This document shows, one piece after another, positions 4,133 through 8,095 of a DNA stretch of 64,000 nt. How positions within the stretch are numbered: position 1 is the first letter of the stretch; each line of letters begins with the position of its first letter. Source of the stretch: Cytophagales bacterium (GTDB taxonomy: Bacteria; Bacteroidota; Bacteroidia; Cytophagales; Bernardetiaceae); the NCBI GenBank assembly GCA_004293815.1, contig RDZD01000026.1:1-64000 (forward strand). The letters are read 5' to 3'. Under the pieces are notes generated by a model. The model had not been told where the DNA came from and searched no databases. It saw nothing but the letters and a program-made list of their open reading frames with translations. The translations under genes were made by a program, and so were the position numbers.

Positions 4133-5695
4133 TCAATAAAAAATGATTACAGAGTTAAGATCTTTACGGGTATAGCCCCACTTTTCTAGCTTATTGAGAT
4201 CGTATTCATGGTATTTGAGCCATTTATGAACAATCACCAAACCGTATTTTTTCTGCATGAGTTCGGGCTTAATGTCCCTATAGCTAAAATACTCTCTGAT
4301 AAAAAAATCGGGACGTTTGGCATTATATCTATCCAATAGTTCTATTTTATTGGTTTTAAGGTAAAAATTAAAAATATGTGCTGCCGTGCTGATAACGGGT
4401 TTAGGCGTATTGAGGAGAGGTCTTATTTTACTCAAATCGCTTTGAAGTTCTTTCTGTACTTTCTCGTTTTCAAGCCTTAGATTTTCTAGGCTCATGGTCT
4501 CCCACTGCCAAAAAGCCCAAGCGCAAAAAGACAGCACCAAGAACAAATCGGCACTAAGCTGCACATTTTTTTCTGCACTCCATTTATAAAAGGCTAGCGC
4601 AGCATTTAAAGATAACATACCCAAGGCAGGCAGCATATAAGAAGGCGCAAGCATAAAGGGAGTCATGACAATCGCATAAAAGCTACCTACAATTAAAGGA
4701 ACCAGTGTGTAAGGTCTTATTTGCTTCTGATATACCTGCCAGATGGTAATACCAGCACCCAATAGAATCCAAATGAAAAGGAGTGGATTTTCTAAAACCA
4801 TTGTGAGCCAGTTCTGTAGCCATGACACTTGTGCATACTCTGTGTTATTTTGTGCCAAAATACGATACATGTACATCAAAAGAGCTTTAACAGACCCACC
4901 GGAAAGAAAAAAGCCCATCCACAAGGCTGCAATTGGGATCACAAAACCCAAAGTGATTTGCAAAACACGCTTTAGCTTCCAGAAAAGTTGCCACTTTTGA
5001 GCCACCAAAACCACTATAAAAGCTCCCGCAATAACAGCCAAGCACATTTCTAAGGTCAGAAACAAAAATGCAATGGAAACACCCAAAATATAACTATTGA
5101 GTGCACTAGGCTTGCGTAAAAAGCGCATTAAAGCACCACAAAAAACCACACAGGCGGACAAATGAAAAATATGGTGGCTCATTAGTGCAAAACACCTATA
5201 GCCAGCAGGGGTTACCAAAACAAAGCCAAAGGCCAGAGCACTCAGAAATGTACTTTTTACATCTAGTTGATCTATAAGCGCAAAGGCTACGAGCAAAGAC
5301 ACATAAATGACCAACAACCAAATAATGTTACTGAGCCTAAATCGCCATTCTTCCACTTCGGGCAAATCAGGTCGGTCAAACCACTGCCAATAGTAATGGG
5401 GCAAAGGTGGATGAAAATGCCTCAAATAAAACACATCCTCAGATTCGGGCGCGTGCATTTTTGCCAAACGTTGAACGGCTGCTGTATCATTTTGCTTTTT
5501 GGCATACCCCAGCTCTAAAAAACGGTGTAATGAAAAGCTATTTACCTCTAGATTATTCTCAACAAAGCCCTTGCGCGAAGCATTGATATAGTCTACCTCG
5601 TCCCAGTTGAGAGGATAATCTTTGTAAGACCAAATATACTGACTTACCAAAAAGAAAGCACCTAAAAGAACCAGAATCAAGTAAAATGGCCGCAT
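4133..5695 (-). CDS. GT-C fold membrane glycosyltransferase (ArnT/PMT-like)
   Basis: 520 residues with about ten to eleven membrane helices. The first periplasmic loop after helix 1 has the GT-C signature: NWDEVDY (Asp/Glu metal- or donor-phosphate-interacting residues) near residue 30 and RHFHPPLPHYYWQW near 92, as in glycosyltransferase family 39/83 proteins that use a polyprenyl-phosphate sugar. The C-terminal soluble stretch (about 400-520) is Lys/Tyr rich and ends in IIFY. It should transfer a sugar to lipid A, a glycan or a protein in the periplasm; donor and acceptor are unknown. It stands alone, with a long gap upstream. Confidence 0.75.
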   Translation of the reverse strand: MRPFYLILVLLGAFFLVSQYIWSYKDYPLNWDEVDYINASRKGFVENNLEVNSFSLHRFLELGYAKKQNDTAAVQRLAKMHAPESEDVFYLRHFHPPLPHYYWQWFDRPDLPEVEEWRFRLSNIIWLLVIYVSLLVAFALIDQLDVKSTFLSALAFGFVLVTPAGYRCFALMSHHIFHLSACVVFCGALMRFLRKPSALNSYILGVSIAFLFLTLEMCLAVIAGAFIVVLVAQKWQLFWKLKRVLQITLGFVIPIAALWMGFFLSGGSVKALLMYMYRILAQNNTEYAQVSWLQNWLTMVLENPLLFIWILLGAGITIWQVYQKQIRPYTLVPLIVGSFYAIVMTPFMLAPSYMLPALGMLSLNAALAFYKWSAEKNVQLSADLFLVLSFCAWAFWQWETMSLENLRLENEKVQKELQSDLSKIRPLLNTPKPVISTAAHIFNFYLKTNKIELLDRYNAKRPDFFIREYFSYRDIKPELMQKKYGLVIVHKWLKYHEYDLNKLEKWGYTRKDLNSVIIFY

Positions 5696-6155: not shown

Positions 6156-6190
6156 GTAACTGACACGAGCAATATTAATGTTACTGACAC
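6156..6190 (+). repeat. Two direct repeats GTwACTGACAC, 24-base period
   Basis: GTAACTGACAC at 6156-6166 recurs as GTTACTGACAC at 6180-6190, one mismatch in 11, about 70 bases before the cas6-like start. The spacing of about two helical turns suits a tandem operator. It is too short and has too few copies for a CRISPR array. Confidence 0.6.
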
Positions 6191-6258
6191 ACCTGGTTGC
6201 TCGTCTCTTTTGCCTTTTTTGAAACACTTGTAGCAACTCACACAAAATTTTTAAAGGT

Positions 6259-7122
6259 ATGCGAGTAAGAGTAATTTTTAGACTTCAGAATAGAGGAGCT
6301 AGTGTGCCCTTCTATCATCAGAACCTTCTCACAGACATGCTCGACAGCATTGTGTCAGAGCACACTGGAGAGTATCATTTTTCTGCGCTCAAAGGGCAAA
6401 CTCGTGTAAGCAAAGGTGGACTTCACTATTGCTCTAGACGTGTAACGTTGGTGCTCTCTTGCATCAATCGTAAGGATTGCGATGATATGCTTCGCAAAAT
6501 ATTTGCACAAAAGCTGTGGGAAGTAGGTGACTTGAGACTTGAACCAGAGTTTGTAGAGCTGGAAAGAGAGCCAGAGCTCAAAGAAATTGTTAAGTTTGTT
6601 TGTATTTCGCCTATTATCCTTTCTTCGGCATCCAGCAGACGTAACTTAAAAGAGTTTCTTGCACCTGACAATGAAGCTTTTACAGACTTACTTTATGAGT
6701 CCACCATGAACAGAATGCTTCATGCAGGCTATATAGATAGCTCTGATTTACATGAGCTTACCAAATTTCAACTTATTCCAGACAGGCGTTATTTAGAGAA
6801 GATTCAGCAAGAGGAAAAGAAGTTTGCGCGTATTTACCGCGTGAGACAAGATAATGAAGAAATAGAAGTGCGTGGTTATACCTTCCCTTTTGTTTTGTGT
6901 GCGCCTCTTCGTGTACAACAGTACATTATGGCAGCAGGCTTTGGCGAGTTCTGTGACCAAGGTTTTGGTATGTTGGATTTGGCTCACAGCGACCACGCTA
7001 GCCGCACCATCCTCTATCCCGATTTTCTGCCAGTTGGTCAAACATTCCACATCAACAATACACCAGAGCCTGAGTTCCTGTTTGAACAGTCTGAGTACTT
7101 TACAGGTATCAAATCTGCATAG
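6259..7122 (+). CDS. cas6: Cas6-like CRISPR RNA endoribonuclease, solitary
   Basis: 287 residues. The N terminus (MRVRVIFRL, then VPFYHQNLLTDMLDSIV) matches the first RAMP/ferredoxin-like strand and helix of Cas6, with Y19 and H20 as candidate catalytic or RNA-contact residues. The central part has VGDLRLEPEFVEL followed by KFVCISPIILSS, the usual Cas6 strand before the second RRM-like half. The C-terminal glycine-rich loop is GFGEFCDQGFGMLDL (about 228-242), the Cas6 hallmark. Cas6 cuts pre-crRNA within or next to its repeat hairpin. No other cas gene and no repeat array lies in the window; neighbours are a glycosyltransferase and an inositol monophosphatase. So it either works on a distant array or has another RNA target. 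Family call firm, role inferred. Confidence 0.85.
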   Translation: MRVRVIFRLQNRGASVPFYHQNLLTDMLDSIVSEHTGEYHFSALKGQTRVSKGGLHYCSRRVTLVLSCINRKDCDDMLRKIFAQKLWEVGDLRLEPEFVELEREPELKEIVKFVCISPIILSSASSRRNLKEFLAPDNEAFTDLLYESTMNRMLHAGYIDSSDLHELTKFQLIPDRRYLEKIQQEEKKFARIYRVRQDNEEIEVRGYTFPFVLCAPLRVQQYIMAAGFGEFCDQGFGMLDLAHSDHASRTILYPDFLPVGQTFHINNTPEPEFLFEQSEYFTGIKSA

Positions 7123-7300: not shown

Positions 7301-8095
7301 ATGTATAAAAAAATTGTCATTCAAGATGTTATAAAAGCTGTTACTGAAGTGAGCGACTTCATCACACGCGAAGCACAAGCTTTTGATGCCAACAAAGTGA
7401 TGATTAAAGAACTCAACAGTTTGGTGTCCTATGTAGATCAGCAGGCAGAGCTTATGTTGATAGAAAAACTCACCCCACTGGTTCCAAATGCAGGTTTTTT
7501 GGCAGAAGAAGGACAAGGTATACAAAATGCAGAAGGCTATAACTGGATTATAGACCCTTTGGATGGGACTACAAATTTTGTTCATGGCGTGCCCGTTTTC
7601 GCTATTAGCGTGGGCTTAGCTCACAACAAAGATTTGATTCTGGGCGTGGTCTATGAGGTGTGTCGCAAAGAGTGCTTTTGGGCTATCAGCGGGCAGGGAG
7701 CTTTCTTGTGGGATAAACCCATTAAAACTTCTAGAAACAACACCCTCAGTAACGCACTTTTAGCTACGGGGTTCCCCTATCAAAAATTTGAACACGAAGG
7801 TGCTTTTTGGAATACTTTTAGCGAATTGATGAAAAACTGCCGTGGTTTAAGACGCTTGGGTTCGGCCGCGGTAGACTTGGCTTACACCGCCTGTGGACGT
7901 TTTGATGGCTTTTTTGAATACAGACTCAATGCTTGGGACGTGGCAGCAGGGGCACTTTTGGTCAAAGAAGCAGGTGGCTTGGTAACAGACTACACAGGCA
8001 AAGAAAACTATTTATTTGGGGGTGAAATTTTAGCGGCTTGTAACCCAGATATTCACAAGGCTATGCTAAACAGCATTCAAAAGTACTATTTGTAA
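7301..8095 (+). CDS. suhB: Inositol monophosphatase family protein (SuhB-like)
   Basis: 264 residues, the normal length. The Mg-binding motifs of the Li-sensitive phosphatase fold are intact: AEEGQG (E69/E70), WIIDPLDGTTNF (D85, D88) and the second signature LNAWDVAAGALLVKEAGG (Asp near 211). It should hydrolyse myo-inositol-1-phosphate or a related sugar phosphate in the cytoplasm; SuhB proteins can also act in rRNA antitermination complexes, and a link to NusB in this organism is only conjecture. The stop codon lies six bases from the convergent cyclase gene, and a shared hairpin covers both 3' ends. Confidence 0.92.
   Translation: MYKKIVIQDVIKAVTEVSDFITREAQAFDANKVMIKELNSLVSYVDQQAELMLIEKLTPLVPNAGFLAEEGQGIQNAEGYNWIIDPLDGTTNFVHGVPVFAISVGLAHNKDLILGVVYEVCRKECFWAISGQGAFLWDKPIKTSRNNTLSNALLATGFPYQKFEHEGAFWNTFSELMKNCRGLRRLGSAAVDLAYTACGRFDGFFEYRLNAWDVAAGALLVKEAGGLVTDYTGKENYLFGGEILAACNPDIHKAMLNSIQKYYL

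Follow-up and report, generated by a model that had tools for sequence, protein, structure and literature searches.

A solitary Cas6-family protein of the Cytophagales that has probably been exapted from CRISPR

The solitary Cas6-family gene of a Cytophagales bacterium analysed here probably encodes an exapted, RNA-binding Cas6 paralogue that is possibly autoregulated. The probability of this explanation as a whole is put at roughly 60%. The window analysed spans the initial 64 kb of contig C5; the genome measures 3.0 Mb on 49 contigs and is 84.7% complete. The gene belongs to a distinct single-copy clade of Cas6-related proteins, for which cas6L is used here as a working name, and which is kept under strong purifying selection. 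Exaptation of cas6L away from CRISPR is very likely. A Cas6 paralogue would have parted from CRISPR early in the history of the Cytophagales. Since then it would have been passed on as a chromosomal gene in single copy, in most cases located just downstream of ychF and a PUR-like gene. The RNA-binding face would have been retained, comprising the RAMP sheets, the glycine-rich loop and the invariant basic residues H20, K45, K187, K188, R191 and R205. With this face the protein probably recognises a particular cellular RNA, acting as a post-transcriptional regulator or as a chaperone; it may also bind the U-tract of its own leader, leading to feedback control. The coordinates of the principal features are collected in Table 1.

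Table 1. Features of the window and of the CRISPR system of the host genome. Positions are those of the window unless a locus is named.
Feature	Position	Strand	Details
cas6L, solitary Cas6-family protein	6259..7122	+	287 aa, ATG start (ORF); Pfam, PADLOC and NCBIfam, model, invariant columns
Candidate regulatory U-tract stretch, 60 nt before start codon	6199..6258	+	T-runs 6215-6220 and 6248-6252
Inositol monophosphatase (suhB-like), downstream neighbour of cas6L	7301..8095	+	PF00459, 5.9e-62
520-aa membrane protein, divergent upstream neighbour of cas6L	4133..5695	-	No Pfam match
Type II-C cas9 (1587 aa), cas1, cas2	L032 13571-19967 (G000:C3 end)		Gene order cas9-cas1-cas2, near contig end
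46-nt CRISPR repeat	L153 2-47 (G000:C29 start)		Single copy; C3 end carries other copy

The protein had been predicted to be a full-length relative of Cas6, and this is confirmed by profile searches and by its structural model. It matches Pfam PF01881 with 68.9 bits (cut-off 23; 9.7e-19), the sole match to this profile in the host genome, and its best PADLOC model is Cas6b (2.6e-25). No other RAMP family scores higher in the profile searches. The match to the NCBIfam Cas6 equivalog TIGR01877 is 47.4 bits, below the cut-off of 58.65; all 51 of the cas6L members compared match TIGR01877 at E below 0.001, and PF01881 is present in all 51. The AlphaFold model (pLDDT 89.6, pTM 0.85) comprises two RRM-like (RAMP) domains and, towards the C-terminus, a glycine-rich loop at residues 227-237, the tandem RAMP/RRM arrangement that is characteristic of Cas6. 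The homology with the canonical Cas6b of CRISPR loci in Cytophagales and other Bacteroidota extends over the whole length (hhalign 99.9%), and the loop GxGxxxxxGFG is common to both. The canonical proteins have an invariant His within an FLHxxGY motif and adjoin Cas1, whereas cas6L lacks that segment.

Orthologues of cas6L are present in 114 of 194 Cytophagales genomes, in 13 families, using a threshold of 160 bits or more; true Cas6 proteins of CRISPR stay below 51 bits, and the gap between is empty. None was found outside the Cytophagales in a 395-genome sample of the phylum. Among the named carriers are Algoriphagus, Belliella, Fulvivirga, Persicobacter, Sporocytophaga and Bernardetia, and relatives are encoded by 370 stretches in GTDB r220. 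In a tree of 65 proteins, restricted to Bacteroidota with archaeal sequences left out and rooted arbitrarily, cas6L forms a single clade (support 100/100) whose stem measures 1.78 changes per site, and the canonical Cas6 proteins, whether from Cytophagales or from other Bacteroidota, fall outside it. An origin as a mobile element was rejected, since there are no relatives on phage or viral contigs and the sole match of this kind is one 602-kb Bernardetia replicon. In that replicon, from Bernardetia sp. Wsw4-3y2 (NZ_CP147018.1), cas6L is located at L206 6001-6813 and annotated 'CRISPR-associated endoribonuclease Cas6'; purQ is also present.

Pairwise values of dN/dS for cas6L within several genera are mostly 0.01-0.06, while four pairs of canonical Cas6 give 0.03-0.17. 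About 48 positions are invariant over 51 diverse cas6L sequences. The loss of catalytic residues described below and the absence of cas neighbours might suggest a decaying, functionless remnant of CRISPR, but these invariant positions, dN/dS of 0.02-0.05 across several genera and retention throughout the order make such a remnant extremely improbable.

The claim that the gene is solitary is borne out, with array and cas genes absent near cas6L. No CRISPR-like direct repeat array was found in a repeat search of the 64-kb window. A whole-genome profile search places the only Cas1 on contig C3, not on the window contig, and Cas3-HD and Cas10 profiles have no match in the host genome, ~15% of which may be missing. 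Contig C3 breaks off on the repeat GTTGTTGCAAATATAGCGTAATCTTGTTTTGAAACCAATTCACAAC, and the genome's only other exact copy opens contig C29; judged by sequence, these contig-end repeats are one CRISPR array broken by assembly. The sole CRISPR system found in the genome is, by its predicted genes, type II-C (Cas9-Cas1-Cas2). In type II-C systems crRNA maturation requires tracrRNA and RNase III with Cas9, not Cas6, and the system of the host would therefore not be served by cas6L. It had been proposed that the protein might serve an array elsewhere in the genome. The whole-genome profile searches lead only to the type II-C system, and the proposal is not supported.

INDEPENDENCE from CRISPR is seen in 49 of the 114 cas6L carriers, which lack Cas1. 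Profile searches for Cas3-HD and Cas10 covered 42 Cas1-free carriers, each at least 92% complete. Both are absent from 39 of the 42 (matches occur in G004, G007 and G494 only), with profiles that overlook some class 1 systems, as in G032 where Cas1 and a canonical Cas6 are present and neither profile matched. With CRISPR-free status judged by Cas1, Cas3-HD, Cas10 and Cas6 profiles, cas6L is the sole Cas6 in 36 of these 39, a strict count from which G035, G056 and G551 are excluded by the presence of a second Cas6-like protein. Several of the 36 genomes are closed or nearly closed, and they include the single-contig genomes G013 and G465. Cas6 is expected to be encoded together with an array and class 1 cas genes, or to depend on them; no such link is observed for cas6L, either in the 36 genomes or in its own genome with type II-C. 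Sixteen genomes have Cas1 in the absence of cas6L. Overall Cas1 is commoner in cas6L carriers than in non-carriers (odds ratio 5.3, p 2e-7, by a statistic that ignores phylogeny). This association is attributed to clade structure, since families nearly always have or lack cas6L as a whole, and Cas1 differs among the members of a family; in most families a large share of the cas6L carriers lack Cas1.

The same association could be taken to indicate that cas6L serves CRISPR arrays in trans, as a standing processing enzyme for transient systems. Many type III loci rely on Cas6 from other loci (PMC12669027), and in G005 an array lies about 10 kb from cas6L. Against this, cas6L is kept in the 36 genomes above, a canonical FLHxxGY Cas6 beside Cas1 is often present where a genome contains class 1 loci, a RAMP ORF of its own adjoins the array in the III-A locus of G007, the window genome contains type II-C only, and cas6L is without the catalytic triad. 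Service in trans consequently has a slim chance of being correct.

Some individual loci merit description. The array of G005 (L148 5264-6792, 6949-8957; G005:C1) has 21 repeats, with cas2 and cas1 and no adjoining effector; a 183-aa membrane-like ORF lies between cas1 and cas2. In the III-A csm locus of G007 the RAMP ORF (247 aa, divergent; L174 7074-7817, - strand) adjoins a 12-repeat array, and is apparently the Cas6 of that locus. The second Cas6-like proteins are located at L150 5545-6360 (- strand) in G056, G035:C1:1385443 and G551:C1:282227, in genomes without Cas1, Cas3-HD and Cas10. That of G056 also lacks FLHxxGY, and the three are possibly another solitary Cas6 lineage.

The genomic environment of cas6L is conserved. 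In 99 related loci, which include some places counted twice, its neighbours are ychF (73), DUF3276 (69), a T9SS plug gene (63) and an AI-2E transporter (61), and at most loci the gene order is DUF3276 > AI-2E > ychF > cas6L < T9SS plug. The gene ychF encodes a translation-related ATPase. The DUF3276 protein matches PDB 3n8b and 3nm7, which are PUR-domain proteins, and is accordingly PUR-like. In the closed genomes G013 and G465, which are Cas-free, cas6L has the standard ychF context. In G037 (L195), which lacks cas6L, ychF and the plug gene are about 70 bp apart, giving a clean empty site, and the layout in G011 (L198) resembles it. In Bernardetiaceae, cas6L has been relocated and ychF is not upstream, so cas6L is not tied to ychF.

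A conserved housekeeping context had been anticipated together with suhB. The context is present in the form of ychF, DUF3276, AI-2E and the T9SS plug gene, but synteny with suhB is rejected, as neither the inositol monophosphatase of the window nor its upstream gene lies beside cas6L in any of the 99 related loci. Of the two flanking genes named originally, the inositol monophosphatase is correctly assigned, while the 'glycosyltransferase' label finds no support in Pfam, that gene being the 520-aa protein of Table 1. The reading of the gene as domesticated is well supported by the conserved context, the order-wide distribution and the CRISPR-independent retention. It is conceivable, if somewhat doubtful, that throughout the order a crRNA-processing protein of CRISPR now serves as a housekeeping factor that binds RNA (or cuts it with a new specificity), regulates its own synthesis and is linked to translation control via ychF and the PUR-like protein, independently of immunity.

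The catalytic triad of PfuCas6 comprises Tyr31, His46 and Lys52 (PMC3652601), and all three positions are lost in cas6L. In canonical Cytophagales Cas6 the catalytic His lies within the FLHxxGY motif. On alignment using hhalign this segment faces a gap in cas6L, with the triad Tyr and Lys facing D29 and G37, and the motif is found in none of 31 cas6L members. The Y19/H20 motif highlighted in the original prediction survives in part: all 81 homologues have H20-Q21, while position 19 is H in 72. Other invariant residues include K45-G46-Q47, K187-K188, R191 and R205. PfuCas6 (VPYNHQYYL; His22 by count) and MjCas6 (IPYNHQYYL) have His at the position aligned with H20; in canonical Bacteroidota Cas6 the residue there is Tyr. 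As judged from these alignments H20 belongs to an old Cas6 motif and is not a sign of catalysis, because PfuCas6 and MjCas6 share the His there, outside the PfuCas6 triad. The same comparison weakens the idea that H20 arose anew as a catalytic residue. With the triad positions lost and H20 outside the canonical triad, the description of cas6L as an RNase is unsupported.

These residues also bear on the alternative of an active domesticated endoribonuclease, in which cas6L would cut one cellular RNA (such as an mRNA or a small RNA, at a hairpin or where it is U-rich) by a relocated or lysine-based site. The model places H20 at the beginning of helix 1, and it is in this helix of the first RAMP domain that Cas6e and Cas6f carry their catalytic His (PMC3652601). 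The invariant K45, K187, K188, R191 and R205 may be set beside SsoCas6, which has no active-site His and cleaves with a lysine/arginine network (PMC3652601). Catalysis is thus conceivable, given the invariance of H20 and cleavage by SsoCas6 without His. Yet PfuCas6 has the equivalent His and uses Tyr31/His46/Lys52 for catalysis (PMC3652601), no position of the triad is preserved in cas6L, and the best profile match of cas6L is to a non-catalytic paralogue. An active endoribonuclease is therefore unlikely. The structural match to Cas6e is weaker (Z about 9), and cas6L differs from Cas6e and Cas6f in its clade-specific sequence and the absence of Cascade genes.

The closest structures to the cas6L model are 3ufc (Z 24.2) and 3qjj (Z 24.1), followed by MjCas6 (5yi6) and PfuCas6 (3i4h, 3pkm) with Z of 22-23; all other Cas6 structures give about 14 or less. 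MjCas6 and PfuCas6 are CRISPR pre-crRNA endoribonucleases that have the glycine-rich loop and P-[YF]-x-H-Q-Y at helix 1 in common with cas6L, which differs in the loss of the active triad of PfuCas6 and in having no CRISPR locus. The first structure, 3ufc, is the non-catalytic PfuCas6 (PMC3652601), PfuCas6nc (PF0393), and 3qjj, 3qjl and 3qjp are PH0350, both from Pyrococcus. These proteins have a two-RRM Cas6 fold like that of cas6L and are also among its best profile matches (59 and 49 bits, respectively). Like them, cas6L combines the Cas6 fold with the lack of the canonical catalytic His. The sequence identity is only 18-20%, however, the Pyrococcus proteins are archaeal, and an order-wide gene in the neighbourhood of ychF is a feature of cas6L that is not shown for PfuCas6nc or PH0350. 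The Pyrococcus hosts also have active Cas6 and CRISPR. The loss of catalytic residues in cas6L and in the Pyrococcus paralogues may possibly be independent. If cas6L has been exapted, it probably binds RNA without canonical Cas6 catalysis; cleavage by a relocated site is then the less favoured outcome.

The leader of cas6L is rich in T-runs. A run of five or more T occurs within 60 nt upstream of the start at 74 of 80 named loci. After dereplication this U-tract is present in 50 of 56 cas6L leaders, compared with 34% of 566 other ORFs from those loci (p about 1e-17 in a binomial test that treats the background as constant, the U-tract having been both noticed and then tested on one set of loci). 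Five-T runs occur in 40% of ychF leaders and 37% of DUF3276 leaders. No conserved hairpin is apparent in the cas6L leaders, which are AU-rich and mostly weakly folded. The U-tract is unlikely to be a terminator of ychF, since Bernardetiaceae leaders without ychF upstream carry it too. The U-tract would be in keeping with an RNA-binding protein that regulates its own mRNA. Autoregulation of cas6L through the U-tract is a tentative proposal, with rather less than an even chance.

In the window the cas6L leader contains an 8-bp inverted repeat (ACGAGCAA / TTGCTCGT at 6165-6172 / 6197-6204), followed by a T-rich stretch. It resembles an attenuator or terminator, although the upstream gene is divergent, and none is visible in the nearest relative (L052). 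In Algoriphagus (L100, L109, L111, L120 and others) the leaders contain a conserved DnaA-box-like CTTATCCACCC before cas6L and a promoter sequence like TACTTTTG. These sequences suggest that cas6L has its own promoter after ychF.

CRISPR exaptation is already known for whole systems, transposons and crRNAs. The open-access papers searched do not describe a Cas6 that stands outside CRISPR and is passed on vertically throughout an order. Annotation as 'CRISPR-associated endoribonuclease Cas6' in the Cytophagales is not safe evidence of CRISPR. The exaptation of cas6L can be tested directly in the cultured carriers Algoriphagus, Belliella and Fulvivirga, and if true it would mean that a Cas RNA-processing protein can turn into a housekeeping RNA factor.
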